In this document: positions 321 to 20,199 of the stretch, one piece after another
Layout of the letters: each line of letters opens with the position of its first letter
How positions within the stretch are numbered: position 1 is the stretch's first letter
NCBI RefSeq assembly: GCF_000423225.1
Contig: NZ_AUHO01000006.1
Span: 186,001 to 250,000, forward strand
DNA from: Kaistia adipata DSM 17808
Lineage (GTDB): Bacteria; Pseudomonadota; Alphaproteobacteria; Rhizobiales; Kaistiaceae
DNA: 64,000 bases
Reading direction: 5' to 3'
The notes under the pieces: model-generated
Told to the model about the DNA's origin: nothing
What the model saw: only the letters and a program-made list of their open reading frames with translations
Databases searched by the model: none
Position numbers and translations under genes: made by a program

Positions 321-321
321 C

Positions 322-3317: not shown

Positions 3318-3319
3318 AA

Positions 3320-3892: not shown

Positions 3893-3982
3893 CGCGACGT
3901 TCCAATGGATCGTTGATGTTGCCTTTCTGTCCGGCGGACCCCGGACAACTCGCGATATGGTCACGGCTGTTAGGAGCTTCAA

Positions 3983-5022: not shown

Positions 5023-7517
5023 TGCGCCTTCTCCAACTGATCATTGACGCCGGCTTCATCCTGCTCGGCTCGACGGCGGCTGCCGAGGCGGCGCCGGTCG
5101 TCGGCCTGTTCGGTGCCTTTGCCGGCTGGCTCGGCTCGGGCGGCATTCTCTCGGGCATCGTCGGCGGCGTGCTGAAGCTCGGCATCGGCCTCGGTGCGTC
5201 CTACCTGGCGCAATCGCTGTTGGGCCGCAAACAGTCGCAACGCGCGGCCGGCGGTTCCTCCGGCAAGATGCAGAGCGGTGGCACGGTCCCACGCTCGTTC
5301 ATTCTTGGCCGTGGCATGACCGCCGGCTCGCTCGAATATGTCGACGAGTGGGGAGAGGCCGACAAGACGCCGAACGCCTTCATCACCATGGTGATCGCGC
5401 TCTCCGACCTGCCGGTGAAGGGCCTCGCCGAGGTCTGGGTGAACGGATCGAAGGTCACCTACACCCAACCAGCATCGAATGTCGGCATGGGTGTCGCCAT
5501 CCCGGAATATCGGAACGGCGACAAGGATCATCTCTGGATCCGCTTTCACGACGGCAACCAGACCGAGGCCGACAGCTTCCTCGTTTCCAAGTTCGAGGGA
5601 CATCCGACCCGGCCGTGGGACGGCAGCTTTGTCGGCCACGGCGTCGCCTACGCCGTCGTCACCGCTCGCGTCAGCGAGACGCTGTGGTCGGGCTATCCGC
5701 AGACGAAGTTCGTCCTCGACGGCATTCCGCTCTATGACGTGCGCGAAGACAGCAGCGCTGGCGGAGATGGTGCGCAGGCCTGGGGCGACCCGGCCGGCTG
5801 GAGCGTGGCGCCCCGTAATCCGATCGTCCAAGCCTACAACGTCGTCCGCGGCATCCGCTTCGATGGGAAGTGGGTGTTCGGCGGCCAGACCGTCGGCGGC
5901 CACCAGCTGCCGATCTCAGCCTTTTCGTCAGCGATGAACGTCTGCGACGTCGCCGTCGGCAAGATGGGCGGCGGCACGGAGCCGCAATATGAAGCCGGTG
6001 GCGAGGTGACCTTCGACACCGAGCCGGCCGATCTTCTCGAAGAGCTGATGAAGTCCTGCAACGGGCGGATGGCCGAGATCGGCGGCATCTACAAGCCGCG
6101 GGCCGGCGCGCCGGGAACGTCGATCTTCCATTTCACGGACGACGACATCCTGTCGACCGATCCGCAGACGCTGGAACCGTTCCCCTCGCTGGCGGCGGTC
6201 ATAAATGCGGTGACGGCCAAGTATGTCGAGCCGCGTGAGGGCTGGGCAGTCAAGGACGCGCCGCCGCTCTATTCGCCTGCGCTTGAGCTGCAGGATGACG
6301 GCCGCCGGCAGGTTGCCGCCGTCACCTATGGCATGGTGTCGTCGGGCACGCAGACGCAGCGGCTGATGAAGTCGGCGCGGGATGAGGCGCGCCGGTTCCG
6401 CCAGCACGCCGTCCCGATGCCGCCGGATGCGTTCCTGCTCGAGCCCAACGATTTCGCGTCGTGGACGTCGAAGCGGAATGGCTATGTGACGAAGCTCTTC
6501 CGCATCGACGCGGTGCAGGATCTCGCCAACCTCAATATCGGCCTCAACCTGACCGAGGTCGATCCGTCGGACTATAGCTGGCTGCCCTCGGTCGACGAGC
6601 GGCCGATCGTTTCCGGACCTACCGTGATCGTCCGGCCGCCGCCGCAGGCCATCGTCGACTGGGCGGCTTCGCCCATGATGATCCTCGGTGACCTCGGCCG
6701 CGCCAAGGCAGGTATCCGCCTGTCTTGGGACCCTGACATCGACGACGTCAACGGCGTCCAGTTCGAGGTGCGGCTCGCGAGCGACGGCACCATGATCTAC
6801 CAGGGCGAGACCGACCGCTGGGACGCGGGCGCCATCATCATCAGCCAGAACCTGACGGGCCTCACCGCCTATCAGACGCGCGGTCGCTATCGCCCCAACT
6901 CGCCGCGTCCTGTCGCCTGGTCGGGCTTGCTGGACGTCACGACGCCGGACGTGTCGGAAGGCCTTTCGGAGCAGGAGCGCTATGAGCTGGCGCTCAACAC
7001 CAATGACGCGCGCGGCTCGATGCAGGAGATGCGCAACGCGCTCGACGAACTGGTCGCGCAACTGGCGCTTGCCGGCGCCGAGAGTGCCGGCGAGGCCTAT
7101 GAGCAGCGTGCGGCCATCCGCGGCAATCTCACCGCCGCGATCCAACAGGTGACGAAGGCGATGATCGATGGCGATGCGGCCATCGCCTCGCAGGTGACCA
7201 CGATCGCGGTCAAGGCGGACCAGGCGACCGCCGGCGGCTTCGTCAAGTTCGAGGCGACGGCCGCGCCGACGGGTGTTGATGCGCGGTTCCAGATCTATCT
7301 CGACGCCGGCGTGCCGGGAACGCCGGACTGGAAGGATGCCGGCTTCCTGCTCGACATCGTTGGCGGCGTGGCACGCTGCGTGATCTCGGTCGACAAGTTC
7401 TTCGTCACTGACGGCACCACCGGCTTCGTCATCCAGGGCGGGCTGCTGACGGCCGTCGGCGGCAAGCTGGAAATCGATCTGATGACCGGCCGCATCCTTG
7501 GCTATCGCGAGGTCTGA
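5022..7517 (+). CDS. Large tail tip / hub protein (lambda J, TipJ-like)
   Basis: The 831-residue protein has a Gly-rich hydrophobic N-terminus (about 25-75), a long beta-rich hub region, a fibronectin-III-like stretch (about 565-645, around AGIRLSWDPDIDDV), a helical linker (about 650-720) and a C-terminal DUF1983-like segment with FVIQGGLLTAVGGK. This architecture is that of tail tip proteins which bind the host receptor and carry the fibres. It starts and ends with one-base stop/start overlaps, so it is coupled to both neighbours. Confidence 0.85.
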   Translation: MRLLQLIIDAGFILLGSTAAAEAAPVVGLFGAFAGWLGSGGILSGIVGGVLKLGIGLGASYLAQSLLGRKQSQRAAGGSSGKMQSGGTVPRSFILGRGMTAGSLEYVDEWGEADKTPNAFITMVIALSDLPVKGLAEVWVNGSKVTYTQPASNVGMGVAIPEYRNGDKDHLWIRFHDGNQTEADSFLVSKFEGHPTRPWDGSFVGHGVAYAVVTARVSETLWSGYPQTKFVLDGIPLYDVREDSSAGGDGAQAWGDPAGWSVAPRNPIVQAYNVVRGIRFDGKWVFGGQTVGGHQLPISAFSSAMNVCDVAVGKMGGGTEPQYEAGGEVTFDTEPADLLEELMKSCNGRMAEIGGIYKPRAGAPGTSIFHFTDDDILSTDPQTLEPFPSLAAVINAVTAKYVEPREGWAVKDAPPLYSPALELQDDGRRQVAAVTYGMVSSGTQTQRLMKSARDEARRFRQHAVPMPPDAFLLEPNDFASWTSKRNGYVTKLFRIDAVQDLANLNIGLNLTEVDPSDYSWLPSVDERPIVSGPTVIVRPPPQAIVDWAASPMMILGDLGRAKAGIRLSWDPDIDDVNGVQFEVRLASDGTMIYQGETDRWDAGAIIISQNLTGLTAYQTRGRYRPNSPRPVAWSGLLDVTTPDVSEGLSEQERYELALNTNDARGSMQEMRNALDELVAQLALAGAESAGEAYEQRAAIRGNLTAAIQQVTKAMIDGDAAIASQVTTIAVKADQATAGGFVKFEATAAPTGVDARFQIYLDAGVPGTPDWKDAGFLLDIVGGVARCVISVDKFFVTDGTTGFVIQGGLLTAVGGKLEIDLMTGRILGYREV

Positions 7518-8002
7518 TGGCGCTCGAAGTCGCATGGCTGCTTGGCAATGACGATCTCGGCGTCTCTGCCTTCAAGGCAACGAAGCCGGGTGCCGACGCG
7601 CGCACGGTCGCGGCCGACGATGTCGGCAAGCTCTATTTCCATTCGAGCTGGGACCGGATCGAGCGGATCCACCAGGCCGCAACCGTCAGCATGACCTTCA
7701 CGCCGGCCAACCAGGCGGGTCGGCGAACCCGCATCATGTTCCCGACGCTGCCCTACCGTCCCATCATCACGGTGCGCCGTCGGTCAGGCGTGTCGATTCT
7801 GGCGGATGAGTGGTGGACCGTCGCGAGCTTTGGCGACGACCCGTATTCGTCCTTGTTTCTCATTGCGTCCGAGTTCAGCTGGTTCGCTATCTTGCCCAAC
7901 GCGGATCGCAATTTCGACAAGGCGAGCAACAACCCGTTGTTCTCCGGCACGCACAGCTTCGACTACATCGTCTGGAAGATCCCGGGGGATCGGCTGCCGT
8001 GA
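7517..8002 (+). CDS. Phage tail-associated protein of unknown function
   Basis: A 161-residue soluble protein coupled to the tip gene (TGATG). It is rich in aromatic residues near the end (FSWFAIL, FDYIVWKIPG). I recognise no family. Position after the tip protein suggests a fibre-base or tail-tip accessory role. Confidence 0.6.
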   Translation: MALEVAWLLGNDDLGVSAFKATKPGADARTVAADDVGKLYFHSSWDRIERIHQAATVSMTFTPANQAGRRTRIMFPTLPYRPIITVRRRSGVSILADEWWTVASFGDDPYSSLFLIASEFSWFAILPNADRNFDKASNNPLFSGTHSFDYIVWKIPGDRLP

Positions 8003-8388
8003 CGCTGGAGCCTGCTTTCGTCCTCGACCTCTCCGTCGAGCCGATCGTCTTCCGCGTCTCGCCGCCGGGCGTCAATGCGCTGGCCGGTGCCGAGGAGGAC
8101 ATGCTGCTCGCGGTCGGCAATCGGCCGGCGCAGATCATCCAGGCGGGGTTGATCAGCGTCCCTGCAACGGGCAGCGTCAGCATCCTCTGGCCGTTCCCGT
8201 TGCTCGATCGGCCTATGGTCGAGTTCCAGTCCAGTTCTACGGCCGGCGAGCTCCGCCTGCCGTACCACTACAATCATGGTGCCCGGACGACGATCACCTG
8301 CACGGTATCGCTGACCGGCGCCACCTTCGTCTCTTCCGGCATCGCGCGCGACGTCAGCTATGTCGCGGTGGCAAGGGTTCTGCCCTGA
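7999..8388 (+). CDS. Phage tail-associated small protein
   Basis: A 129-residue beta-rich protein. GTG 7999 is chosen because GGGGGAT lies 8 bases upstream and it overlaps the previous stop by four bases; an in-frame ATG at 7810 would overlap the previous gene almost fully. There is no signal peptide. It sits within a run of coupled tail genes; function unknown. Confidence 0.6.
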   Translation: MTLEPAFVLDLSVEPIVFRVSPPGVNALAGAEEDMLLAVGNRPAQIIQAGLISVPATGSVSILWPFPLLDRPMVEFQSSSTAGELRLPYHYNHGARTTITCTVSLTGATFVSSGIARDVSYVAVARVLP

Positions 8389-8978
8389 TGGCGCGCCAGC
8401 TCGCGGCCCAGTTCGGCATTCTCGATGGTCAGCCGCGCTTCCGCATGGTGGCAGCGGGCGGGAACATGGAAGCCCCGACCTTTGCCGACCTGATCTATGA
8501 CAGCAATCTCTCGACGGTGAAGGTGCGGACCTCCGGCGTCCTGGCCTTCACGATCGGCACCGGCTGCTACGGCCAGCAGCACGTCGTCACCTGGCCAGAC
8601 TTCGGGTTCATTCCATTTGTCCTTTTGGCGATATGCCACCCCTCCTATCTCTGGACCTATGGTCCGCGCACCAATGGCAGCCTGCCGATCGAGATCGGCG
8701 CGAATACCGGGCTTGGCTACAACGCGACAGATAACAACAGCTATCCCGTGCGATGCGCGATGCCGAACATGTTCTACGACCAGTCGAACCTGCAGGGCGG
8801 CTCAATCAGCAATCCCGGCGGCACGGGCCCGACGCCGGGCGGCCGCTACGAGAAGTGGGTGTTCAACGCCCTCGTGAAGCGGGACCGCATGACGGTCACC
8901 AACTGGCTGGCCTACCAGCCCGGGGCGACCGAACCCTATCGCGTCTTCTACTACGTCCTCGACCTCCCGATCGGGTGA
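8388..8978 (+). CDS. Phage tail fibre-like protein
   Basis: A 196-residue protein starting at ATG 8388 in a TGATG overlap. It is rich in Gly, Asn, Tyr and Thr (GLGYNATDNNSYPV, NPGGTGPTPGG), a composition usual for surface-exposed tail or fibre proteins. No named domain is recognised. Confidence 0.6.
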   Translation: MARQLAAQFGILDGQPRFRMVAAGGNMEAPTFADLIYDSNLSTVKVRTSGVLAFTIGTGCYGQQHVVTWPDFGFIPFVLLAICHPSYLWTYGPRTNGSLPIEIGANTGLGYNATDNNSYPVRCAMPNMFYDQSNLQGGSISNPGGTGPTPGGRYEKWVFNALVKRDRMTVTNWLAYQPGATEPYRVFYYVLDLPIG

Positions 8979-8981
8979 AGC

Positions 8982-9458
8982 ATGATCATCGAATATGAAG
9001 GTGGCGGCCCGACTCCGGGCCGGATTTGGCATGTCCTCGGCACCTATGGAGAGGGGCACTTTAAGATGCTCGCCGAACAGGGGCATCCCTATCTGCTGCT
9101 GATCCTCGGTGACGCATCCGAGGATCAACGGGCGTCGCTCTCCACTGCCGGCATTCCGTTCGTCGTGCTGCCGGAGCGGCCGGCCTTCGACCTGACGAGC
9201 CACGGCTATGTCGAGGCCGGCACGTTGCGCGAGCGCCTGCCGATGCCGGTCATGCTCGACCGCGGCGAGATCGCCGCCGACGCCGTCGACGAGGCCGTGC
9301 TTTCCGGCATTCCAGCCAGCGCCATCGTGACGGTCGACGGCGAGCCGGTCGCGCATGATGGCGCGCTCGAGATCTCGTCGGCCATGCCGGCGACTTATCA
9401 CGTCCATGTCGAGTGCTGGCCGCATCTGCCCTTCGCGGCCGACATCACCGCCAGCTGA
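8982..9458 (+). CDS. Hypothetical phage tail-region protein
   Basis: A 158-residue soluble protein starting 3 bases after the previous stop. Short alternating hydrophobic strands and conserved-looking Pro/Gly turns suggest a small beta domain. It belongs to the same co-directional block; I do not recognise a family. Confidence 0.55.
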   Translation: MIIEYEGGGPTPGRIWHVLGTYGEGHFKMLAEQGHPYLLLILGDASEDQRASLSTAGIPFVVLPERPAFDLTSHGYVEAGTLRERLPMPVMLDRGEIAADAVDEAVLSGIPASAIVTVDGEPVAHDGALEISSAMPATYHVHVECWPHLPFAADITAS

Positions 9459-9468
9459 CGGATCTCCC

Positions 9469-9837
9469 TTGAAACTTCAGATCACGAAGAACCTGGACGC
9501 GCTCCGGGCTGACGCCCTGCTGCGCCTCGACCAGACGGCGAACGCCCGCATCTATGACCTCGCTGCATCGCCGGTGGCGATTGTCCGGGCGCGCAAGGCG
9601 GCCGAGGCCGAGCACTGGGCGGCAGGCGGTGGCGCCGGCCCGTTGCTTCGCGCCGAGGCGGGAACGACCGGGATCGACGTCGCCAGCCTGGTCGACGCCG
9701 TGCTCGTCAAGGCCGCCAACGCCGCCGAGGCGATCGCCACGGTCGAGGCCCGGCGCCAGGCGGCGCAGGCCGCGATCCGCGCCGCCACGCATCCTGCGGC
9801 CATCGCCGCGGCCCTCGAGGAGTTCGCCCATGGCTGA
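9469..9837 (+). CDS. Small Ala-rich helical phage protein
   Basis: TTG 9469 (product begins LKLQITKNLDALR) is preferred over ATG 9355, which would overlap the previous gene by about 100 bases. The 122-residue product is almost wholly helical and Ala-rich (AEAIATVEARRQAAQAAIRAA). It overlaps the next start by eight bases. It may be a structural linker or fibre chaperone; this is inferred from shape and place. Confidence 0.55.
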   Translation: MKLQITKNLDALRADALLRLDQTANARIYDLAASPVAIVRARKAAEAEHWAAGGGAGPLLRAEAGTTGIDVASLVDAVLVKAANAAEAIATVEARRQAAQAAIRAATHPAAIAAALEEFAHG

Positions 9838-10438
9838 CAGCACCTATGCCGCCGGCACGATTTCGCTCGCGGCCGGCGGCCTGGCCGTTGCTGGCGCGCT
9901 GACGGCGTTCCTGAGCCAGGTGAAGCCCGGCGACACGCTGATCCAAGGCGCGACCTGGGCCGTCATCGCGACCGTCGAGAGCAACACAGGCCTGACGCTG
10001 GAAAAGCCGTGGCCGGGACCGATGCTCACCGGTGAGGCCGGCTATCAGATCCTGCGTACCGGCGTTGGATGGCATTCCGCGGTCGAGATCAACGCACGGC
10101 TGACCGCGATCATCGCCGCGATCGAGGCGGGCAGGGGCGTCCAGCCCGACGCCACCGGCACGCTCGCCGATCGCGCGCTGAATGACGCCGCGCCGAAGGG
10201 CTTCATCTTCTGGCGGACGGATGTCACGCCGTTCGAGCTCTACGTGAAGGCGAGCGCGGCTTCCGGCGACTGGGCCGGGCCGACCAGCCTGCAGGGGCCG
10301 GCCGGTGACGACGGCACGCCCGGCGCCACGGTCGCCGACGTCCTCGCCGGCCTCGGCCTTACCAGCATCACCATCAGCACCAGCAACCCCTCCGGCCCGG
10401 CGCCTGACAACGCGCTCTGGCTGAAAGTTCCCGCTTGA
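9830..10438 (+). CDS. Phage fibre protein with short collagen-like segment
   Basis: ATG 9830 has GAGG about 9 bases upstream. The 202-residue protein has a Gly/Ala-rich N-terminal beta region, then a central part with FWRTDVTPFELYVK, a short collagen-like run (QGPAGDDGTPGA, about 158-169) and a compact C-terminus ending LWLKVPA. Collagen-like Gly-X-Y runs are common in trimeric phage fibres. Confidence 0.65.
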   Translation: MADSTYAAGTISLAAGGLAVAGALTAFLSQVKPGDTLIQGATWAVIATVESNTGLTLEKPWPGPMLTGEAGYQILRTGVGWHSAVEINARLTAIIAAIEAGRGVQPDATGTLADRALNDAAPKGFIFWRTDVTPFELYVKASAASGDWAGPTSLQGPAGDDGTPGATVADVLAGLGLTSITISTSNPSGPAPDNALWLKVPA

Positions 10439-10452
10439 GCAAGGAGCCCATC

Positions 10453-10770
10453 ATGGAAGTCACGCGGATCAACGAAGACCTGATCGACATCGGCGGCAAG
10501 GTGCGCGTCGAGCGCGGCCCGGCCAGAAAGACCGGCAAGGCGACCGAAGCGCTGTTGGATGACGAGAAGACGGCGTCGCACTACCAGCTCGGCAAATTCG
10601 ATGCCGACGGCAAGGTGATCGAGGCCGGCAAGACCATGACCTATCTCGACTGGCTCGGTCCGAAGGGCTGGTACGTCTACGCCCTAGGGGAGGTTGGTCC
10701 GGTCGAGGACAGCTTCCACGACGACGAGGCGGCGGCCGTGGCGCGCGGCACCACGCTCGCGTCGGCTTGA
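10453..10770 (+). CDS. Small hypothetical phage protein
   Basis: ATG 10453 is chosen because AAGGAG lies 7 bases upstream; TTG 10435 is in frame but contains that ribosome site. The 105-residue product is acidic and soluble with no recognised domain. It sits between fibre-type genes. Confidence 0.6.
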   Translation: MEVTRINEDLIDIGGKVRVERGPARKTGKATEALLDDEKTASHYQLGKFDADGKVIEAGKTMTYLDWLGPKGWYVYALGEVGPVEDSFHDDEAAAVARGTTLASA

Positions 10771-10798
10771 TCTTCCAACCCCAGCGCGAGGCCTTCCC

Positions 10799-11179
10799 AT
10801 GCCCTATTTCAACGACCGCATTCTCGACAATGGCCTGCAGGTGCTCGACACCGAGGCCAATCAGATCAACATCTGCTCGGCCGAGCCGGCGACCTACACC
10901 GCCGCGACGGCGGCGAACTCGCTCGGCAGCAAGGCCTTCTCTGCCGGCGCCGCCTTCGGCTCGCCTTCCGCGCGCTCGCCGAGCGGCCGCAAGGTGACCT
11001 CGGCCGCGATCACCGATGGCTCGGTCAACTCGACCGGCACGGTCACGCACTGGGCCGTCGTAGACACGGTGAACAGCCGCTTGCTCGCAGCCGGCTCGGT
11101 CAACAACAGCCAGGTCGTCACCGCGCCGAACCCGTTCACCCTCGCGGCGTTCGATATCGGCCTTCCCGGCATCGCCTGA
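10799..11179 (+). CDS. Phage tail/fibre-associated protein
   Basis: ATG 10799 has GCGAGG upstream. The 126-residue product begins MPYFNDRILDNGLQVL and is rich in Ala, Ser and Thr, with regular short strands (VTSAAITDGSVNSTGTVTHW). This composition is typical of tail fibre parts in Rhizobiales prophages. Function is otherwise unknown. Confidence 0.6.
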   Translation: MPYFNDRILDNGLQVLDTEANQINICSAEPATYTAATAANSLGSKAFSAGAAFGSPSARSPSGRKVTSAAITDGSVNSTGTVTHWAVVDTVNSRLLAAGSVNNSQVVTAPNPFTLAAFDIGLPGIA

Positions 11180-11193
11180 CCGAAAGCTGATCC

Positions 11194-12630
11194 ATGTTCG
11201 GCTCGTCTCCCTTCGGTTCCGTACCGTTCGGCCGTCAGCGGCCGGGCGGTGCCTTCGTGCTGGTGGCCGACGCTCTGTCGGGCGCGGCGCCGGTCGTGGG
11301 CACGCCGGCCGTCGGCCAGCGGCACGGGCTGGTGGCGAGCGGAATCACCGGAGGCGCGCCGAGCGTCGGCAGCCCGGCTGTCGGCCAACGCCATGACCTG
11401 ATCGCCACCGGCATCGCCGGCGGCGCCCCCGTCATCGGCACGCCCTCTGTCGGCCAGCGTCACGCCCTGGTCGCAGATGGCATTGCCGGTACGACGCCGA
11501 CGGTCGGCAGCCCGACCATCGCGCAGGTCCACGCGTTGATCGCCGACCCGCCCGTCGCTGGCGCTCCGGATCTCGGCGCGCCTACGCTGGCGCAGACCCA
11601 CATCCTGATGGCCGATGCCCTCACGGCTGCCGGCCCTGACATCGGCGCGCCCGCGGTCGGGCTGCTGCACCATCTCGTCGCCGTCGGAATCGACGGGCAG
11701 GCTCCGAGCGCGGGCGTCGCCGACCTCGGCCAGATCCATCTCCTCGAGGCGGTCGGGATCACCGGCGCGGCGCTGACGATGGGGACGCCGATCGTCGGCG
11801 AGGCCGGCTATGGCTTGACGGCGGATGGCCTGACCGGCCTGCCGCCCGCGATCGGCACGCCCGCCCTCGGTCAGACCCATGCTCTGATTGCCGAGTCGGT
11901 CACGACTACGTCGGCCGAGATCGGCACGCCCGACTTCGGCCAGGTGCATGCCCTGCTGGTTGACGGCATTGTCGGTGGCCGGCCAGATCTCGGCGTGCCG
12001 GAGTTCGGATTCGTGTTCGAGTTCGAAGCCGATGACCTTGTCGGCGCGGCGCCCGACATCGGCATGCCTCTGGTCGGCCAGGTGCACGTTCTTACCGTCG
12101 TGCCGCTGGATGGCGGCGCCCCGCAGATCGGCGTCGTCGATTTAGGGCAGGTTCACATGCTTGAGGCGACCGCCCTCATTGGCGGCGCCCCTGATCTCGG
12201 CTCGCCTGCGATCAGCCAGGGGCACGACCTTGAGGCGATGGGGATCACCGGCGGGGCTCCCGATCTCGGCTCCCCAGACCTCGGCCAGGTTCATGCTCTC
12301 GTGGCGATAGGGATCGTGGGCGCAGCGCCGGTCGTCGGCCAGCCCATGCTGGGGCAGCTGTACCAGCTTATTGCGACCTCGCCGATCGCGGCGGCTCCGG
12401 TCCTCGGGCAGCCGGCCTTCGGGCAGGTGCATGTGCTCATGGCCGACGAGCTGGTCGGCGCGCCTCCGGTCATCGGCGAGCCAAAGCTCGGCGGGGTCGG
12501 CGGGCTGTATGTGCGGCGCTCCGGCGAGTGGGAGGCGTCCGATATCTTCGCCCATCACGGCGGTACCTGGAAGCCGGTCTCGCTCGGCTGGATCGGTCGC
12601 GACGGCGTCTGGAAAGAGTTCTACAACTAG
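11194..12630 (+). CDS. Repeat-built tail protein (18 copies of a 23-residue unit)
   Basis: A 478-residue protein made of a 20-residue N-terminus (MFGSSPFGSVPFGR), then 18 tandem units of 23-24 residues, then a C-terminal cap of about 45 residues with two tryptophan-rich motifs (GGTWKPV and GVWKEFYN). The consensus unit is roughly L-x-A-x-G-I-x-G-x-A-P-x-(V/L)-G-x-P-x-(V/L)-G-Q-x-H. Period and Gly/Pro spacing suggest a beta-solenoid or beta-spiral shaft, with the cap as possible ligand-binding end. It lies among fibre genes. No signal or membrane segment is present. The units differ at many sites, so the array is old or under diversifying selection. Confidence 0.8.
   Translation: MFGSSPFGSVPFGRQRPGGAFVLVADALSGAAPVVGTPAVGQRHGLVASGITGGAPSVGSPAVGQRHDLIATGIAGGAPVIGTPSVGQRHALVADGIAGTTPTVGSPTIAQVHALIADPPVAGAPDLGAPTLAQTHILMADALTAAGPDIGAPAVGLLHHLVAVGIDGQAPSAGVADLGQIHLLEAVGITGAALTMGTPIVGEAGYGLTADGLTGLPPAIGTPALGQTHALIAESVTTTSAEIGTPDFGQVHALLVDGIVGGRPDLGVPEFGFVFEFEADDLVGAAPDIGMPLVGQVHVLTVVPLDGGAPQIGVVDLGQVHMLEATALIGGAPDLGSPAISQGHDLEAMGITGGAPDLGSPDLGQVHALVAIGIVGAAPVVGQPMLGQLYQLIATSPIAAAPVLGQPAFGQVHVLMADELVGAPPVIGEPKLGGVGGLYVRRSGEWEASDIFAHHGGTWKPVSLGWIGRDGVWKEFYN
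11254..12498 (+). repeat. 69-bp tandem coding repeat array, 18 units
   Basis: The DNA period matches the 23-residue protein unit; two units carry one extra codon. Identity between units is moderate: the GGxCAG and CAC/CAT codons at unit ends recur best. Unit count and boundaries were assigned by eye from the protein. Confidence 0.75.
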
Positions 12631-12639
12631 GGATACATC

Positions 12640-13338
12640 ATGGCTTTTGTCGTGAAGGACCGGGTGCGGGTGAAGACCGCCACCACCGGAACGGGGACGA
12701 TTGCGCTCGGCGCAGCCGTGACCGACGTGATCCGGGGCTATTATCAAACCTTCGGCGCGGCCGGCGTGGCGAACGGTGATGTCGTCCCGTACCTGATCGA
12801 GGACGGCGCCAGCTGGGAGATCGGCATCGGCACCTATGTGGCGTCAGGCACTCAGCTGCAGCGCACGACAGTTCTTTCGAACAGTGCAGGCGCGACGTCG
12901 GCCATCAGCCTGTCCGGTGCCGCCGAGGTGGCGATCGCCCTGATCGAGGGTATGGTCGGGCTTTCGGCGGCCGTCTATCGCGCCATGACCTCGGGCAAGC
13001 TGATCACGACGGACGCGGTCGTCGCCGGCATGGAAGAGGTGCCGCTCTCGATCAGCGGCGGCAACGTCGCCTGGGATATGAGGGACGGCACGAACTTCCT
13101 CATTCCGCTGACCGCGAACGCCGTGCTGCTCGATCCATCGTTCTATGTGCCGAACAAGACCGGACGGTTCCGGATCGCTCAGAGCGGAGCGTTCACGCTC
13201 GGTGTCGGCTCGGGCTTTAAGACGCCGGGCGGCAAGGGGCTGGAAGTGACGTCGGGCGCCGGTGCCGAGGACTACGGCTTCTATGACTGCGTCGCCGCCA
13301 ACAAGGTGGTGATCACCCTGCTCAAGGACGTGAAGTAA
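12640..13338 (+). CDS. Phage tail fibre-type protein
   Basis: ATG 12640 has AGGGATA upstream. The 232-residue product begins MAFVVKDRVRVKT followed by a small beta domain (to about 105, with WEIGIGTYVASGTQLQRTTV) that is widespread at the N-terminus of tail fibre proteins, then a distal beta region ending in VVITLLKDVK. It is coupled to the next gene by a TAATG overlap. Confidence 0.7.
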   Translation: MAFVVKDRVRVKTATTGTGTIALGAAVTDVIRGYYQTFGAAGVANGDVVPYLIEDGASWEIGIGTYVASGTQLQRTTVLSNSAGATSAISLSGAAEVAIALIEGMVGLSAAVYRAMTSGKLITTDAVVAGMEEVPLSISGGNVAWDMRDGTNFLIPLTANAVLLDPSFYVPNKTGRFRIAQSGAFTLGVGSGFKTPGGKGLEVTSGAGAEDYGFYDCVAANKVVITLLKDVK

Positions 13339-14048
13339 TGCTGCCGGGCTTCTCAGGCCACATGCTGATGGCCAGCGGCCCTAGCGGGCCCAGTGATCCG
13401 TTCTTCGATAGCGTCAGTTGTCTCCTGCACTTTGACGGTCCGAACAATGGCACGGTGTTCACGGACAGCTCGAACAACGCTCTTCCGATCACCCTCGCGG
13501 GCAACGCGAAGATCGATACGTCGCAGTCGATGTTTGGTGGGGCGTCGGCCACCTTCGACGGAACGGGTGACTACGCATATTCGGATCACGCAACCGCGTT
13601 TGATCTGACCGGGGACTATACGGTTGAGTTCTTCCTTCGCCGCCGGGCCCTCATCTCGGGGAACTGGGGCTTCGTTTCCATGAACGCCTCGGGCAAGAAT
13701 GCTGCGCCGGATTTCGGAATACAGTCCGACAAAGTCCTCGTGTACCTGGCTGGGGCCCAGCGCCTGGCGACATCCTCGAGCCTGGCCTTGAACACCTGGT
13801 ACCATCTGGCTCTGACCCGAGCAGGGGCGGTCAATCGTCTATTCTTGAATGGCGCCCTGCAACAGTCCTATTCGCTGGCAACGTCGTGGACGGATGGCGG
13901 GCTCACATTGGGGGCGCTTTCCTCGGCCCGGACCACGAACGCCACCAACAAGCTGAATGGCTGGCTCGATGAGTTCCGCGTGACGCAAGGCGTCGCGCGG
14001 TACACGGCCAGCTTCACCGTTCCGACTGAGGCTTTTCCCGATCAATGA
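13338..14048 (+). CDS. LamG/concanavalin A-like phage fibre protein
   Basis: A 236-residue protein whose residues about 25-230 form a LamG-like jelly-roll: LLHFDGPNNGTVFTDSS, YTVEFFLRR, NTWYHLALTRAG, RLFLNGALQ and LNGWLDEFRVTQGVARY are all hallmark segments of the laminin-G-3 family. In phages such domains bind surface carbohydrate. The base composition is slightly more A/T-rich than upstream genes, as often seen in exchangeable receptor-binding modules. Confidence 0.85.
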   Translation: MLPGFSGHMLMASGPSGPSDPFFDSVSCLLHFDGPNNGTVFTDSSNNALPITLAGNAKIDTSQSMFGGASATFDGTGDYAYSDHATAFDLTGDYTVEFFLRRRALISGNWGFVSMNASGKNAAPDFGIQSDKVLVYLAGAQRLATSSSLALNTWYHLALTRAGAVNRLFLNGALQQSYSLATSWTDGGLTLGALSSARTTNATNKLNGWLDEFRVTQGVARYTASFTVPTEAFPDQ

Positions 14049-14076
14049 CCGACAGTTTCATTGATAGCCCTCCGAA

Positions 14077-14532
14077 GTGGGTGCGCTCTTGACTGATTTA
14101 TTCTCGCGAAATCTCATCCGCTGGGACCCGTCGCAGCGCATTAACGGCATCCGTTACGGGCGGGACATCGCCCGCTGGCCGGATGAAGATCTTGCCGCCA
14201 TTGGCCTCTACAGGGCGAAGCCGCCGGACGTGATCCCCGAGGGCATGCAGCCAGGCGCTGGCGTCGAATGGGACGGATCGAGTGTGCGATACGTGCTCGA
14301 GGAGATCCCGCCCGCGCCACGCCGCCGCGTTGAAAAGTGGCTGATCATCGAGCGGGTGAACGCGGCAGGGAAAGCCGCCGCCGCCGATGCGTTGCTCAAT
14401 CTGCCTGGCAACGAGTTCGCCAAGTTCCGTTGGCTGGCGCCGGTCGAGTCCGTCTTCTTCGACGACCCGGACACCGTCGCCATGGTGGAGGCGCTCGAGC
14501 TCGATCCCGATGTGATCATGGCTGTGGGATAG
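14077..14532 (+). CDS. Hypothetical protein at the end of the tail operon
   Basis: About 151 residues from GTG 14077, or slightly shorter if TTG 14089 is used; neither has a strong ribosome site. The N-terminal half contains basic and aromatic segments and the C-terminal half is helical and acidic (FFDDPDTVAMVEALELDPD). Place after the terminal fibre gene suggests a fibre assembly protein, but I recognise no family. A hairpin follows at once. Confidence 0.6.
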   Translation: MGALLTDLFSRNLIRWDPSQRINGIRYGRDIARWPDEDLAAIGLYRAKPPDVIPEGMQPGAGVEWDGSSVRYVLEEIPPAPRRRVEKWLIIERVNAAGKAAAADALLNLPGNEFAKFRWLAPVESVFFDDPDTVAMVEALELDPDVIMAVG

Positions 14533-14536
14533 AAAA

Positions 14537-14563
14537 CCCGCCGGGCGCGGCAGCGCCGGCGGG
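14537..14563. terminator. GC-rich hairpin between convergent genes
   Basis: Arms cccgccgggcgc and gcgccggcggg pair with one bulged base around a four-base loop. A run of A on its left (minus-strand T) and convergent genes suit a terminator for the gene at 14573-14671, and it may also end the tail operon. Confidence 0.6.
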
Positions 14564-14572
14564 CCAGTTCGG

Positions 14573-14671
14573 TTAGACGCAGTTGCTTATGGGGCTACAC
14601 GCCGGTGTCGCCGCGATCTGCTGCAGCAGCGAGCTCTTGTCGAGCGTCGGCTTGGCATAGGTCTTCTTCAT
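14573..14671 (-). CDS. RiPP-precursor-like 32-residue peptide
   Basis: The start is fixed by a strong GGGAGGA site 6 bases upstream of ATG 14671. The leader-like half shows Y5, P8 and L10 in the spacing of the YxxPxL motif that lasso-type leader peptides use to bind the RRE protein. The C-terminal half contains C25 and C31 around SPISN. It has no Asp or Glu after D11, so it cannot form the lasso isopeptide ring; a disulfide or thioether loop is possible. No cyclase, protease or RRE gene lies near, so any maturation would be in trans. Location inside a prophage, insulated by terminators on both sides, points to a cargo gene. I infer peptide function from the motif only. Confidence 0.7.
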   Translation of the reverse strand: MKKTYAKPTLDKSSLLQQIAATPACSPISNCV

Positions 14672-14767
14672 TCTCAGTCCTCCCGTTTTAGTTGCGCGCT
14701 TAGCCTGACACCCCCTGGTGCGGGTGTCCATGCCGTTGCGGCAACATTCCTTCAGAATGGACCAGGC

Positions 14768-14796
14768 AAAAAAAGCCCACCTCGAGGGAGGCGGGC
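14768..14796 (-). terminator. Intrinsic terminator upstream of the RiPP-like gene
   Basis: On the minus strand gcccgcctc pairs with gaggtgggc (one G-U pair) and is followed by seven T. It lies 97 bases before the start of the 32-residue peptide gene, so it either ends a leftward transcript from 14.8-15.1 kb or acts as an attenuator in that gene's leader. Confidence 0.75.
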
Positions 14797-15116
14797 AAGT
14801 CTCTTGGGCTCGGATCACGTGGCGCCTCTGCCCTGGCAGCGAGCGTTGCCACGCATCCCCAACGGTACGTCCGGACGCGTGTTCCCTGCGGCCTATTCAG
14901 CTAGCGGTGATTTCAAGAGGAACGCGCGGGCGCTGCCAGCTGGCCAGAGCGGGACTGCATTCGGCCCATATGGATAATGAAGCCCACCGAGTGGCCAATA
15001 TATGCCGTCGGCGGGCTTCACCGAGTGGCCCAGCGACGAACCACCCATGGCAACCACTCAAACGGATCGAGATGCCAGCGTGACGTCGCTGGGCTAGAGC
15101 GGGCCGGCCGAGGCCA
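14797..15116. other. Gene-free 320-bp stretch with paired repeats
   Basis: No convincing reading frame. It holds CACCGAGTGGCC twice in direct orientation (14985-14996 and 15019-15030) and an inverted pair GAAGCCCACCG / CGGCGGGCTTC (14979-14989 and 15009-15019) with a 19-base gap. With the minus-strand terminator at 14768-14796 this could be a leftward non-coding transcript or a protein-binding site. Confidence 0.4.
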
Positions 15117-15353
15117 CTAGCAAAGGGATACGGAGAACTGGGACCGCCGCCGCTGCGGTTCGTTCTGACTTGGCTCGGCGCCTTGGATAATCTGCAGCTC
15201 GATGGCGTCGCCTTGCACGAGATCCCGGCGTATCGCGGCGATCACTCCCTCGAAGGCCGCTTCCTTGCTGAGATAGGTCTGGCTCACTTCATGTGGCCCG
15301 TCGAACGCCCAACCTTTGCCATCCCTCATAAGGGCATAGCGCCGCGTCTCCAT
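15117..15353 (-). CDS. Small hypothetical prophage protein (DUF2188-like size)
   Basis: A 78-residue product from ATG 15353 (METRRYALMRDGKGWAF). The ribosome site is weak and a GTG nine codons earlier is an alternative. The short strand-turn-helix pattern with EAAFEGVIAAIRRDL recalls small DUF2188-type proteins, but this is a loose resemblance. It reads leftward between the RiPP-like gene and the lysis cassette. Confidence 0.5.
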   Translation of the reverse strand: METRRYALMRDGKGWAFDGPHEVSQTYLSKEAAFEGVIAAIRRDLVQGDAIELQIIQGAEPSQNEPQRRRSQFSVSLC

Positions 15354-15460
15354 AGGTTTTCCGATCTTGGCATCCACGGCGCACGATAGCGCCGGGCATT
15401 CATACAGAGATGGTGGGCACTGCCTGCCGGCGCAATCCGCAATCTTGCTGGAGACATCAC

Positions 15461-15673
15461 ATGCTCGTGTCCAACTGGCGCGCGGTGCTTTGCCGTGCGT
15501 GGTCGATCCGTCTGCTTCTGCTTGCCGGCGTGCTGTCCGGCGTCGAGGTCGCGCTTCCCCTGATCGGGGTCGAGGCCATTCCGCCCCGTGTGTTCGCGAC
15601 TCTGTCCGGCATCGTTGCCGCGGCCGCTTTCGTCGCTCGTCTCCTCGCACAGAAAGGGATCACAGATGCCTAA
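15461..15673 (+). CDS. Small two-TM membrane protein opening the lysis cassette
   Basis: ATG 15461 has GGAGA 6 bases upstream. The 70-residue protein begins NWRAVLCRAWSIR and has two membrane helices (about 16-36 and 44-62). It matches a family found directly before endolysin genes in alphaproteobacterial prophages (DUF7940-like), where a holin or pinholin role is plausible. It overlaps the endolysin start by eight bases. Confidence 0.7.
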   Translation: MLVSNWRAVLCRAWSIRLLLLAGVLSGVEVALPLIGVEAIPPRVFATLSGIVAAAAFVARLLAQKGITDA

Positions 15674-16238
15674 GCTCGCTCCGAGCAAGCGCGGCAAAGC
15701 AGCGATCGCGGCTGTTCTCGCCGTCGCCGTCGGCGGACTTGTCACGATGTCCGGCGAGCGCGTGCCGGACGACGTCGCGCTCGCCGCGCAGTTCCTCGTC
15801 AAGCCCTGGGAGGGGCGGGAGCTCCGCGCCTATCCGGATCCGGCCACCGGCGGCGCGCCCTGGACGATCTGCGATGGCGACACCAAGGGCGTGAAACCGG
15901 GAATGCAGGAAACCCCGGCCGGCTGCGACCGGCGGCTGGTTCGGCGTATGGGTGAGTTCCGCGGCCAGCTCGTCGCTTGCGTCCCCGGCTTTGCCGGCAA
16001 GCCGCTCTCCTGGCGCGCGATGATGAACTCGCTCGCCTACAACATCGGCACCGGCGCCGCCTGCCGGTCCACCGCCGCGAGGCTCGGCGCAGCGGGTCGC
16101 TTTGTCGATAGCTGCAACGCCGCGACCGCGTTCAACAAGGCCAGTGGCCGTGTCTTCATCGGCCTCGTGAATCGCCGCGAGATGGGCGACGCCCGTCGGA
16201 TCGGCGAGGGCGAGCTCTGCGTATCGGGGCTGAAATGA
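15666..16238 (+). CDS. SAR-type endolysin (GH24 lysozyme)
   Basis: The 190-residue enzyme cuts the peptidoglycan glycan strand. ATG 15666 follows AAAGGGAT. An N-terminal weakly hydrophobic helix rich in Ala/Gly (about 11-30) is a signal-anchor-release segment, so export by Sec and release on membrane depolarisation are expected. The catalytic triad is visible as E49 (PWEGREL), D58 (YPDP) and T67 (PWTICDG). Five further Cys residues could take part in the disulfide switching known for R21-like enzymes. It overlaps the spanin gene by four bases. Confidence 0.88.
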   Translation: MPKLAPSKRGKAAIAAVLAVAVGGLVTMSGERVPDDVALAAQFLVKPWEGRELRAYPDPATGGAPWTICDGDTKGVKPGMQETPAGCDRRLVRRMGEFRGQLVACVPGFAGKPLSWRAMMNSLAYNIGTGAACRSTAARLGAAGRFVDSCNAATAFNKASGRVFIGLVNRREMGDARRIGEGELCVSGLK

Positions 16239-16615
16239 TCCCCGCCGTCTTCGGCCTGAAGGGCATTGCCGTCGCCGCGGCGATCGGCTGCGCCGTCGGC
16301 GCCTATGCCGGATACCGCGTCACAGACGCCTTCGGAGAGGCCAAGGCGCTCCGCCTCGAGCGGGCGCAGCTGCGCGCTGACCTCGACGCCGCCAAGGAAA
16401 CCATTGACCGCAATGCCCGCCTGACGGCGGGCGTCCACGCAATCGCGATCGGCGTCAACCGAGCCATCGCTTCTCTGAGGGAGGCCGCCGGCGATGAAGC
16501 TCTCATCCGGGATGATCCTGTCTGTCGCTATAGCGATGACGAGTTTGGCCGGCTGCGCGAGCGGATCGACCGGGCGGCCGCCGCCGGCGGTCTTCGTTCC
16601 TCCTCTGGCCCCTGA
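16235..16615 (+). CDS. Rz-like inner-membrane spanin
   Basis: A 126-residue protein with one N-terminal membrane helix (about 8-28) and a periplasmic coiled-coil (AKALRLERAQLRADLDAAKETIDRN), the layout of i-spanins that fuse inner and outer membranes at the end of lysis. It starts within the endolysin stop (ATGA) and its last third contains the start of the o-spanin in another frame. Confidence 0.85.
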   Translation: MIPAVFGLKGIAVAAAIGCAVGAYAGYRVTDAFGEAKALRLERAQLRADLDAAKETIDRNARLTAGVHAIAIGVNRAIASLREAAGDEALIRDDPVCRYSDDEFGRLRERIDRAAAAGGLRSSSGP

Positions 16616-16772
16616 GATCCGCGAGCCCTGCGCGCCGCCGGCGCCGAGCCGCAATCCGCAGGTGATGGCCAACCGGGCGATCGACGCCTTCGGCGTCTGC
16701 AATGTCAAGCATGCCGGCGCGGTCGGGGCTTATGACCAAGTGATGATCGAGCTGTGGAAGGGGCGGCGATGA
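16494..16772 (+). CDS. Rz1-like outer-membrane lipoprotein spanin, nested in Rz
   Basis: A 92-residue lipoprotein in the +1 frame relative to Rz, overlapping it by 122 bases. The signal sequence ends in the lipobox LAGC, with C21 as lipidation site, followed by a Pro-rich segment (GRPPPAVFVPPLAPE) typical of Rz1. The pair forms the two-component spanin complex. Its stop overlaps the next start (ATGA). Confidence 0.85.
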   Translation: MKLSSGMILSVAIAMTSLAGCASGSTGRPPPAVFVPPLAPEIREPCAPPAPSRNPQVMANRAIDAFGVCNVKHAGAVGAYDQVMIELWKGRR

Positions 16773-17026
16773 AGCAGCCGGAATACGAGCCCGCCGCCGA
16801 GCGCTACGGCGACCTGCCCGAGGAGACGCGCCGCATGCTGGAGGCGTTGCAGCCGGACGAGGTCGAGTTCCTGCAGAAGCTCATCCGCGTGATGATCAGC
16901 TTCGGAACGGTCGGCAAGGTCGTCGGCATCGTCGGCGGGGCGATCATCGGCCTTTTGATCGGGCTGCCGCTGCTGATCGACGCGCTCATGCGGATCTGGA
17001 GCTGGTTCCCGCATAGGGGGCCGTGA
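16769..17026 (+). CDS. Holin-like membrane protein
   Basis: An 85-residue protein from ATG 16769. The first 45 residues are acidic and helical; one long hydrophobic segment (about 50-74, VGIVGGAIIGLLIGLPLLI) follows, then a short cationic tail. Its place at the end of the lysis cassette suggests a holin or lysis regulator. The family is not certain. Confidence 0.65.
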   Translation: MKQPEYEPAAERYGDLPEETRRMLEALQPDEVEFLQKLIRVMISFGTVGKVVGIVGGAIIGLLIGLPLLIDALMRIWSWFPHRGP

Positions 17027-17032
17027 CGCGGC

Positions 17033-17419
17033 TTATTTTGCGCCGCGTCCGAAAATGAAGGCTAGAGCCGCGGCGCCAAACGAAAGCGCGCGCTCTGCCT
17101 GTTTGGACCAGAACTCTGCCTGCTCTGGCGCAACAGGAGACGCGGGTGTTCCGGTGGCCTGAAGCCAGCAATAGGCAGTGCCACCTAGTCCTATCACCAT
17201 AGCCAGGAAGGCAATATACGTTGGCGCCGACTGTTCTCCGCCGAAAGCTCTGCCGAGCCAACCAATGTTGGCGAGGTGCATTTTTTCCGCATGACGGTTC
17301 TCCTCTTGGGTCAGCTTGAGTTGAAGATCATGCCCCGAGGAGATCGCCGCGTTTAATTCCGGGTCGTCCTTGCTCTTGTCCTGAATGGCGTCCTTAGCCG
17401 CCGAGCGGTCAGATGCCAT
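17033..17419 (-). CDS. Membrane protein partner of the ImmA-like peptidase
   Basis: A 128-residue protein with a charged helical N-terminus (to about 60), a membrane helix (about 66-86, YIAFLAMVIGLGGTAYCW) and a second hydrophobic segment (about 110-125). It starts 11 bases inside the end of the ImmA-like gene, so the two are co-translated. Unknown family. Opposite direction to the lysis genes marks it as lysogen cargo. Confidence 0.7.
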   Translation of the reverse strand: MASDRSAAKDAIQDKSKDDPELNAAISSGHDLQLKLTQEENRHAEKMHLANIGWLGRAFGGEQSAPTYIAFLAMVIGLGGTAYCWLQATGTPASPVAPEQAEFWSKQAERALSFGAAALAFIFGRGAK

Positions 17420-17945
17420 ATTCGAACGCGAGCCTATTCTTGATGACGGGCACCGAGACGGCGAATAGCCGCGACAGGCCCTCTAGCGGCATCGAATTCC
17501 AGTATCTGTCCAGCATGAAGCGAGGAACGAGCAGATTGGCCGCGAAGGCGTTCGCCTCTTTCTCGTGTGGCTCGTTGCCAGTGTAGTCACCATCTCTCAT
17601 AAGCATTCGATACTCAGCCGAACGAGCCCACTCTGCATGCAGGACGCTGTGACCTAGCTCGTGCGCAACAGTGAAGGTCTGTCGAAGTGGGTATTCGTCC
17701 TGATTGACGTAGATGGAGTTGTCCTCGCAATCGAAAAAGCCCGACACGTTCTCAAATCCTTTGTTGAACGTGACGAATACGACTTCGATGCCCATCTGCC
17801 GCGCAATGTCGACAGGGTTTACAGGCGGGTTCTGAATTCCAAATCGTTCGAGTATCGCGCGGGCCTCGGACTTTACCTTTCGGTAGTCTGGGCGTCTTTC
17901 GGTGGTGGTCACAGCATAGGTTCCTGACCCATCTGGAGAATACAT
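17409..17945 (-). CDS. ImmA/IrrE family metallo-endopeptidase
   Basis: A 178-residue zinc protease of the COG2856 family. The HELGH motif is at about residues 98-102 in TFTVAHELGHSVLH, with the third ligand likely in the EKEANAFAANLLVP segment. ATG 17945 is chosen because the frame further upstream overlaps a small zinc-ribbon gene, though the ribosome site is weak. Family members cleave phage or ICE repressors or DdrO-like regulators, usually beside the repressor gene; no HTH regulator is visible here. Its partner is instead a membrane protein. Confidence 0.85.
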   Translation of the reverse strand: MYSPDGSGTYAVTTTERRPDYRKVKSEARAILERFGIQNPPVNPVDIARQMGIEVVFVTFNKGFENVSGFFDCEDNSIYVNQDEYPLRQTFTVAHELGHSVLHAEWARSAEYRMLMRDGDYTGNEPHEKEANAFAANLLVPRFMLDRYWNSMPLEGLSRLFAVSVPVIKNRLAFEYGI

Positions 17946-18001
17946 GTTGACAATAGCTTTATCACGTTGAGGTTGCGATTCGCATCCCTTGATTGGGGGG
18001 G

Positions 18002-18139
18002 CTACGTCCGCGCCCGCTGGGGCGGCACGTCGAACATCACGCTGATCTGGCGGCAGCCGCAGGCGGGGCATTTCAGCCGCTGCGACGGCATTGAGATCGG
18101 GAAGTCCCGCCCGCGCATCCAGACCAGCACGTCCCGCAT
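18002..18139 (-). CDS. Small zinc-ribbon-like protein
   Basis: A 45-residue reading frame beginning MRDVLVWMRGRDF with a single knuckle CPACGC (about 24-29) followed by QISVMFDVPP. This matches the C-terminal half of small prophage zinc-ribbon proteins that read like RLRCxxCGSRxVxVxF. Only one Cys pair is present, so it is short or truncated. A seven-codon open frame ends just upstream. Expression is unproven. Confidence 0.5.
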   Translation of the reverse strand: MRDVLVWMRGRDFPISMPSQRLKCPACGCRQISVMFDVPPQRART

Positions 18140-18247
18140 CTTCGTTTCGACTGTTCATTTCTCGTTCAGGTTGAACATGCGAGCTTCCTCTCGTTAACGT
18201 CAACTGTTAAGCGCCTGCTCGATGGCAGGCCTTCTGGGGGAATATAT

Positions 18248-19463: not shown

Positions 19464-19662
19464 TTATGGCTTCGATCGGGACTTGCGGGTTGCTTTGGCA
19501 GCTTCAGGATACGCTGCTTGATAGGCCAATCTCTGCGCACGAAGACGCTCTGTTTTAGCTGCGGTCAACGCCTGATAGCGCTCAATAATCTCATGAGCTG
19601 CCAGCGTCGTTGAGTCGGCTTTCTGTTGGCGCTAGGGGGGGCTTCATCAGTTGCGTTTTCAC
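19464..19662 (-). pseudogene. Small gene with apparent frameshift, downstream of the cold-shock gene
   Basis: GTG 19662 has an excellent AGGAG site, but its frame stops after 23 codons. In the next frame a convincing protein tail runs on (EIIERYQALTAAKTERLRAQ to the stop at 19464) with no start of its own. Joining the two by one indel around 19600-19640 gives one small basic helical protein. A run of seven C lies near the start. It may be a real mutation or a sequencing error. Confidence 0.45.
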
Positions 19663-19675
19663 GGGGGCTCCTGAA

Positions 19676-19704
19676 ATAAAAAAAAGGCCGGGCAAAGCCC
19701 GACC
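19676..19704 (-). terminator. Intrinsic terminator of the cold-shock gene
   Basis: On the minus strand ggtcgggc-ttt-gcccggcc is followed by eight T, about 60 bases after the cold-shock stop codon. Confidence 0.85.
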
Positions 19705-19763
19705 TTCTCTAGCGAACGAGCGTGGTGCCAGTACATCCGTGGTCACCGCTCAAGTTCGCTTAG

Positions 19764-19973
19764 TTAGGCGGCCTGAAGATTTTCAGCCGAGAACTTACCG
19801 TTGCGCTTGTCGGGGACGGAGTCGTAGCTGACCTTCTGGCCCTCACGAAGCGTCGACATCCCAGATCGTTCGACGGCCGAGATATGGACGAAGATGTCGG
19901 TGCTGCCATTATCCGGCTGGATAAAGCCGAAACCTTTGGTTTCGTTGAAGAACTTGACTGTTCCAATAGACAT
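19764..19973 (-). CDS. cspA: Cold-shock domain protein CspA family
   Basis: A 69-residue single cold-shock domain that binds single-stranded RNA/DNA and melts structure. RNP1 is KGFGFI (13-18) and RNP2 is DIFVHI (26-31); length and ending [10 protein letters not shown] are normal. AAAGGGAA lies just upstream of ATG 19973. It has its own terminator. Rhizobiales carry several paralogues, so the exact member is not assigned. Confidence 0.95.
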
Positions 19974-20199
19974 ACGATTTCCCTTTCAGGATCGAGTGTA
20001 TAACAGGTCGCCCCGCGGAGCGGTGCGCCACAAATACCGAAGATGTGAGGAAAAATCGTTGTGGCTTTATCAGCCAGAACAGAGCTCTGCGCATGTTCGA
20101 TTTTGCAAACCTAAGGGTGGAATGTGTCTGAAGCAAGGTAATTCTGAATTTTTGCGATGGATCGCGGATCTTTAGTGATGCTCCTCGAATTGGCTGGTG

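Follow-up and report, generated by a model that had tools for sequence, protein, structure and literature searches.

The window analysed here, a 64,000-nucleotide stretch of the genome of Kaistia adipata DSM 17808 (G000:C2:186001-250000), carries on its minus strand an open reading frame of 32 codons plus stop (14573-14671) that encodes MKKTYAKPTLDKSSLLQQIAATPACSPISNCV. The ribosome-binding site GGAGGA (14678-14683, minus strand) lies 7-12 nt 5' of the ATG, in a context comparable to that of its relatives. Residues Y5, P8 and L10 form the YxxPxL leader motif, the Cys residues are 25 and 31, and residues 12-32 contain neither Asp nor Glu, D11 being the sole acidic residue. Curated NCBIfam and Pfam models gave no match for the 32-residue peptide, and Rfam at the gathering threshold gave none at the peptide locus. 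Since single-query and profile searches both recovered relatives, the gene is, judged by its sequence, not a chance ORF.

The gene is flanked by two terminator-like hairpins on its own strand. The hairpin on the 5' side (14775-14796; 9 pairs followed by a run of seven T) would shield it from read-through. The GC-rich hairpin on the 3' side (14531-14572; about -26.5 kcal/mol) is followed by TTTT; the terminator scan listed it as 14538-14553, but the actual stem is longer. Five terminator-like sites were found within 3.5 kb, as compared to 2.2 ± 1.3 in shuffled sequences. Thus, a preliminary description of this DNA, made from its letters, was right about the strong ribosome site, the leader pattern, the two Cys in a C-terminal half lacking acidic residues, and the terminators on both sides. 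Upstream, the box TGTTGCC-N8-ATGGAC (14726-14746, minus strand) is located 75 to 55 nt 5' of the ATG. In the form TGTTGCC-N8-AT(C/G)GAC, it precedes the start by 75 or 78 nt in 8 of the 13 members aligned, phage-borne and other, and is missing in the remaining five. The pattern with a spacer of 7-9 matched four times in the genome; three matches precede family members, including both prophage copies, and the fourth is at C1:1509960, while the reversed pattern used as a control gave no match. The box may be part of a promoter.

Positions 1-17795 of the window are the right part of a prophage (IMG/VR UViG 2524614770_000002, 49.8 kb, the end of which maps to 17795), in line with the prophage carriage proposed previously. 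Its integrase gene (phrog_1) adjoins a tRNA-Arg gene at about C2:152.6 kb, beyond the window, and a search for direct repeats of at least 15 yielded no convincing prophage ends. The left neighbour of the peptide gene, on the plus strand, is the last gene of the tail region (14077-14532; homologues in the viral contigs L066, L068 and L069, no PHROG match). To its right, the lysis module starts with a holin (15410-15673, plus strand; phrog_1356) and an endolysin (15588-16238, plus strand; phrog_7). The peptide gene thus occupies the junction of tail and lysis genes and is antisense to both. Prophage morons are insulated cargo genes lying antisense in the late region, and examples are known that act as complete proteins. 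The gene shares the insulation by terminators and the orientation opposite to the late genes, together with a putative promoter marked by the conserved box; unlike those morons, its product would need RiPP enzymes of the host.

A second prophage of the same genome carries a family copy at C3:262.5 kb, with one extra antisense gene between the peptide gene and the holin. Further phage-borne copies were found in IMG/VR contigs L066 to L069 and in two prophages of G017 (L150 and L154, the latter nearly identical to L066), and a prophage remnant in a genus genome (L099/L156) retains, besides a copy, only the start of an endolysin and the end of a tail-region gene. Among the distinct phage and prophage loci, all of them compared because they carry the peptide gene, the peptide is located between tail end and endolysin and opposite to both in 7 of 8; the exception is viral contig L067, which has another layout and is counted, like the remnant L099, among the eight phage peptides. 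The endolysins scanned beside this slot belong to three PHROGs (phrog_7, 181 and 315), and the cores of the phage copies differ. The phage-borne peptide is not an isolated case, since the same slot in other phages of the group holds versions with different cores. INPHARED phage records contained only four chance-level matches to the peptide (E of 8).

A precursor family with a conserved leader

A search of the genome with the single peptide sequence recovered three relatives at E-values from 4.6e-7 to 0.0065 and five weaker matches at 0.1-1.2. One of the latter, L008 (C5:252511), was dropped as a chance match, its flank lacking a precursor-like ORF. A profile was then built from ten members of the genome, with the tandem copies completed by script, so that the E-values of these ten are given by construction. 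It found an eleventh member at C2:742.5 kb (E of 3.8e-7) and members in other genomes with E-values down to 1e-14. In total, the genome encodes 11 members: the window gene, the copy in the second prophage, five tandem copies, three solitary genes on C1 and the gene at C2:742.5 kb. The five tandem genes (C3:534.3-535.3 kb; L010 ~9340-10277) differ in their cores, and no RiPP enzymes adjoin them. Four other genomes of the genus (L161-L164) likewise have tandem arrays, each made up of four to six precursors that differ in core. Elsewhere in the genus, family members were present in G016, G017, G021, G023 and G026 (4 to 15 each), and Mesorhizobium species contain many relatives.

The ten relatives in the same genome share a conserved leader and a variable core, the outcome anticipated for a precursor family by the preliminary description. 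The first ten members all agree at Y5, P8, K12, I19 and A21 and differ in the tail; the family consensus is MKKTYEKPxLxKRExLxRIAA, and Y and P are invariant in the family alignment A2. In the window peptide, the leader comprises residues 1-21 (14609-14671, minus strand; KKTYxKPxLxK...LxxIAA) and the core residues 22-32 (TPACSPISNCV; 14576-14608, minus strand), with Ser at core positions 5 and 8 and Cys at 4 and 10. The boundary at 21/22, i.e., cleavage after A21, is likely; it is inferred from the Y(-17) register of BsfA in the accessible text of PMC10368454, from the Thr-Ala that many Mesorhizobium leaders have at this place, and from the conservation pattern. In all 91 pairs formed by 14 relatives, leader codons showed pN below pS (mean ratio of 0.44); the relatives had been picked by protein similarity, which favours this outcome. 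The relatives matched the lasso_cyano model only below its cut-off, and 19 relatives scored at most 20.4 bits with NF033528 (cut-off of 33). With a conserved leader, a variable core and an RRE protein encoded in the genome, the peptides have the general appearance of RiPP precursors.

Peptide numbers grew from 40 to 77 listed by hand and to 102 distinct peptides collected with a leader-only pattern; the latter set was used throughout, except that the split by location comes from the hand list. The set of 102 leaves out a diverged G023 peptide resident at its enzyme locus (L128) and the weak matches of G003 and G027. Its members are related, so counts of peptides are not independent observations, and ORFs were called by a simple GC3 rule that leaves some starts and frames uncertain.

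The N-B1-B2-K locus and its co-occurrence with precursors

In line with the earlier statement that no maturation genes lie nearby, neither B2 nor PqqD matched within the 64-kb window. The genome contains a single lasso-type B2 (PF13471), at C2:743.2 kb, with a strong PqqD match adjoining it; a second PqqD match, at C5, only reached the cut-off. This locus, about 541 kb from the phage peptide gene, has the order N (NTP_transf_5, 94 bits), precursor, B1 (a PqqD-type RRE), B2 and K (an HprK-like kinase). B2 scored 57.4 bits with NF033537 (cut-off of 33), and its Cys and His are conserved in 14 orthologues. The predicted structure of B1 (pLDDT of 69.9, a moderate value) most resembled TbiB1 and TfuB1, lasso RREs whose structures were determined in complex with leader peptides.

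The assignment of K is moderately supported, resting on its fold and invariant residues, as no family cut-off was passed (TIGR04352, 27 bits, cut-off of 200; Pfam Hpr_kinase_C, 12.8 bits, cut-off of 33.3). A K profile searched against the PDB matched HPr(Ser) kinase with an E-value of 0.0015 over about 55 residues, mainly the P-loop, and an unrelated P-loop protein with 0.0037. The predicted structure (pLDDT of 90.9) was nearest, by Foldseek, to the PEPCK/HPr-kinase fold (E of 1.8e-9, TM of about 0.5). All 14 orthologues retain H135, S154-G157-K158, T160-T161 and D175-D176, residues that agree with the His, the P-loop and the Asp-Asp described for BsfK in the accessible text of PMC10368454.

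All 14 loci examined, the own one and 13 in other genomes, contain the N-B1-B2-K set, the calls in other genomes being tblastn matches of about 29-86% identity. The cyclase motif SGGxDS, searched for on stretches of about 11-20 kb, was absent from ORFs of at least 250 codons in these 14 loci; one looser match, SAGNDA, occurred in L127. The motif was present in L133, L134 and L137; of eight further B2 loci, 2-3.3 kb in length, five had it and three were negative. It stands beside B2 in separate loci of four genomes that carry the set (L133, L134, L118 and L119) and in G323, G037, G250 and G345. In the Kaistia genome, four PF00733 matches were all on other contigs; the strongest is full-length (375 bits) and presumably, by its look, an ordinary asparagine synthetase. 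Thus, of the RRE, B-protein and cyclase genes that were to be sought elsewhere in the genome, the RRE and B2 were found, and a cyclase motif beside them was not. In the Mesorhizobium-like genomes G094 (L132/L133) and G159 (L134/L135), a B2 locus with the cyclase motif lies about 12-25 kb from a cyclase-less N-B1-B2-K locus, a setting for cross-talk between pathways with similar leaders.

Within the genus, precursors and B2 occurred in the same 6 of 14 genomes, and the other eight had neither, a pattern expected once in 3003 if genomes were independent. In a pgi tree, the six positive genomes fall in one clade with G019, so the pattern may reflect just one gain and one joint loss. In G019, which lies inside this clade, TetR and Crp are immediate neighbours at the site that holds the N-B1-B2-K set in the six others, and no precursors were found in this genome; enzymes and precursors are thus missing together. 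No exporter is among the genes missing in G019.

Across the order, at least 11 of 397 genomes had precursors (E ≤ 1e-4), and all 11 had B2, as compared to 32 of 397 with B2 overall (27 above the cut-off). By genus, B2 was present in all precursor-positive genera (4 of 4, at least four being positive) versus 19 of 142 overall; precursors were sought among the best 20 candidates per genome, so these counts are lower bounds. All 11 precursor-positive genomes have the N-B1-B2-K set, as do G021, G026 and G027, which makes 14. Of the 32 genomes with B2, 21 yielded no precursor at E ≤ 1e-4 among the same best 20 candidates per genome, and four of the 21 (G037, G250, G345 and G323) have the cyclase motif next to B2. 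G323, a congener of the positive f23 genomes, combines B2 and the cyclase motif with neither the set nor precursors. G003 gave a weak 12-residue precursor match (E of 0.006) without B2, and G005 two B2 matches without a precursor. PqqD alone was discarded as a marker of the machinery, being unspecific (present in 20 of 28 genomes).

Predicted maturation and alternative explanations

The residue conserved in the core is Ser. It was present at core positions 3-6 in 99 of the 102 distinct peptides, the exceptions being two of the three G069 peptides and one from G006. In the hand list, core Ser was found in all phage-borne (8), solitary (16), tandem (23) and machinery-resident (4) peptides and in 25 of 26 from other genera; shuffled cores gave averages of 3.0, 6.8, 9.9, 1.7 and 12.6, respectively, a comparison that overstates independence because members are related and in which, for the four residents, shuffles reached the observed value. 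Two or more Cys occurred in only 30 of 102 peptides, and Cys was rejected as the conserved core residue. The preliminary description had named the lack of a conserved core Cys in homologues as an outcome that would speak against it. This outcome counts against a Cys chemistry and not against a RiPP, since Ser is kept in almost all cores. In the characterised systems, BsfK, helped by its RRE B1, phosphorylates Ser3 of the precursor (accessible text of PMC10368454), and LppK phosphorylates Ser3 of the core in linear polyphosphorylated peptides (LPPs), which are made without a cyclase (accessible text of PMC13381572). Together with these precedents, the conserved Ser suggests phosphorylation, here at Ser26 (core 5) or Ser29 (core 8). 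Some differences bear on this prediction: the Ser has no fixed place and ranges from core 3 to 6, in contrast to Ser3 in those systems, and the predicted cut has Ala(-2) where characterised precursors have Thr or Ile. BsfB2 failed to cut an I(-2)A variant, according to the same portion of PMC10368454.

As far as the accessible text of PMC13381572 goes, LPP clusters have the order lppA-K-B-S-D-N, and the Kaistia system resembles them in the YxxP leader motif, the variable core, a discrete RRE, an HprK-like kinase, an NTP transferase and the lack of a macrolactam cyclase. The combination of RRE, HprK-like kinase and NTP transferase without a cyclase was thus found, with the kinase assigned by fold and invariant residues. 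According to that text, LPPs are from Bacillota and rely on a signal-peptidase-I-like leader peptidase (LppS), an MsbA-like exporter and one to three precursors per cluster; here, by contrast, there are a lasso-type B2 (NF033537/PF13471), no exporter in the gene set that G019 lacks, and some ten short, scattered precursors, two of them on prophages. Their consensus given above does not match the LPP leader consensus YxxPxVLxHQxIxFETxxS reported there. Phosphorylated lasso peptides of the Bsf type (bsfA-B1-B2-C-D-K-N; accessible text of PMC10368454) share the RRE, B2, K and N and the Y(-17)-P(-14)-L(-12) leader; unlike them, the system described here lacks a cyclase motif next to the set and an acidic residue for the ring, and its precursors are encoded away from the enzymes. 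Compared with lasso precursors in general, the YxxPxL motif is shared, whereas Asp/Glu at core 7-9, an adjoining cyclase and matches to curated NCBIfam models are lacking. Prochlorosins or synechococsins are similar in having many scattered precursors (procA) with a conserved leader and a variable core served by one enzyme, ProcM, and differ by lanthionine chemistry and an unrelated leader; the word 'phage' is absent from the portion of PMC10783134 that was accessible. From its sequence features, the phage peptide would work like an LPP with lasso-type B1 and B2, matching neither class fully.

Taken together, family membership, prophage location, the insulated unit, the one machinery locus, the co-occurrence and joint absence, the lack of a cyclase motif and the conserved Ser are read from the sequence, and we consider it probable (about 70%) that the gene is a phage 'substrate moron', i.e., an insulated temperate-phage cargo gene whose sole product is a RiPP precursor, matured in trans to a linear phosphopeptide. 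A phage-borne precursor using host machinery and a non-lasso chemistry had been raised in the preliminary description, and it is favoured by the leader/core pattern, the remote RRE-B2-kinase locus and the co-occurrence within the genus. In a lysogen, the peptide would be made from its own promoter; B1 would bind the YxxPxL leader, K would phosphorylate Ser26 or Ser29, and B2 would cleave after A21. N may decorate the phosphate. The predicted product is a short linear phosphopeptide, possibly with a Cys25-Cys31 disulfide, that would add to, or compete with, the host's own peptides. Its function, at a guess, is probably that of a lysogenic-conversion trait, such as a signal, a competition factor or a modulator of the host peptide set.

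Alternatively, the peptide might be a decoy or inhibitor that ties up B1, K or B2 and dampens the host peptides instead of giving a useful product. Having the same leader as the host peptides, an insulated gene and a fixed phage slot would suit such a role, which we nevertheless consider unlikely, as all eight phage-borne copies keep the core Ser while the rest of the core varies, and this suggests a core that is modified and used. Another explanation is that the peptide acts unmodified, e.g., at the membrane or as a regulator, its leader being a relic of a precursor gene that lost the link to its enzymes. The phage part of the window indeed encodes neither B2 nor PqqD; the constraint on the leader, the concurrent lack of enzymes and precursors in G019, the upstream box common to a chromosomal relative and the conserved core Ser all argue against it and make it improbable.

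Chemistries other than phosphorylation have less in their favour. We give little credence to a core crosslinked through Cys, lanthionine-like or by disulfide, with Ser as a spacer or lanthionine partner: the peptides with two or more Cys include the window peptide, and these often flank the Ser, but 72 of 102 peptides have fewer than two, a kinase-like gene is kept in the 14 loci, and inspection of the own locus by eye showed no dehydratase. A true lasso precursor, with a cyclase from another locus closing the ring, would fit the YxxPxL leader, the RRE and the lasso-type B2, but the lasso cyclase reading is mostly refuted for the window peptide by the missing acidic residue. Asp/Glu occurs at core 7-9 in only 12 of the 102 family members, the SGGxDS motif is absent from the 14 N-B1-B2-K loci, and the PF00733 matches are all on other contigs, so that this explanation is hardly credible. 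The earlier exclusion of a classic lasso ring was correct in this respect.

For the substrate moron, a broader form can be put forward, towards which the evidence leans slightly. Kaistia-like temperate phages would reprogram the RiPP factory of their host by substrate alone, using a lysis-side slot with interchangeable precursors that combine a host-type leader and box with phage-specific cores; the factory would be a new cyclase-less lasso-type class, N-B1-B2-K, serving about ten dispersed genes. If so, lysogeny would alter which linear phosphopeptides the bacterium makes, and a phage would convert its host through a new substrate for an existing pathway rather than an enzyme or toxin. Orphan YxxPxL 'RiPP precursors' without adjoining enzymes would gain a use, and the range of linear phosphopeptides, reported from Bacillota, would come to include Alphaproteobacteria, where another type of peptidase would act. 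What phosphorylated lasso peptides and linear phosphopeptides do would become testable, as a prophage adds or removes one substrate in a constant strain. No report of a phage-borne precursor matured in trans by host RRE, B2 and K came up in the searches made of open-access papers, PMC11118758 and PMC12360287 among them.

Further features of the prophage and its flanks

The extra antisense gene of the second prophage (246-249 codons; L011:9793-10533, minus strand) is common to both prophages of the genome with about 80% DNA identity; its counterpart in the window is at 3320-4069 on the minus strand, and it belongs to no Pfam or PHROG family. At the predicted prophage end, an IrrE/ImmA-like metallopeptidase (PF06114, phrog_87) is encoded at 17409-18203 on the minus strand. 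In the tail region, a protein encoded at 11194-12630 contains repeats of about 23 residues, GxPxVGQxHxL, recognised by eye, and TRF found a 69-base unit over part of the gene. The length of this protein varies in related phages (293, 364 and 478 aa), which suggests a change in repeat number. Beyond the prophage, the alphaproteobacterial sRNA ar35 (Rfam) was identified at 19677-19796 on the minus strand. The surrounding region (19507-20143) shares about 80% identity with the sequence flanking the second prophage at C3; that flank also encodes a cold-shock-like protein.
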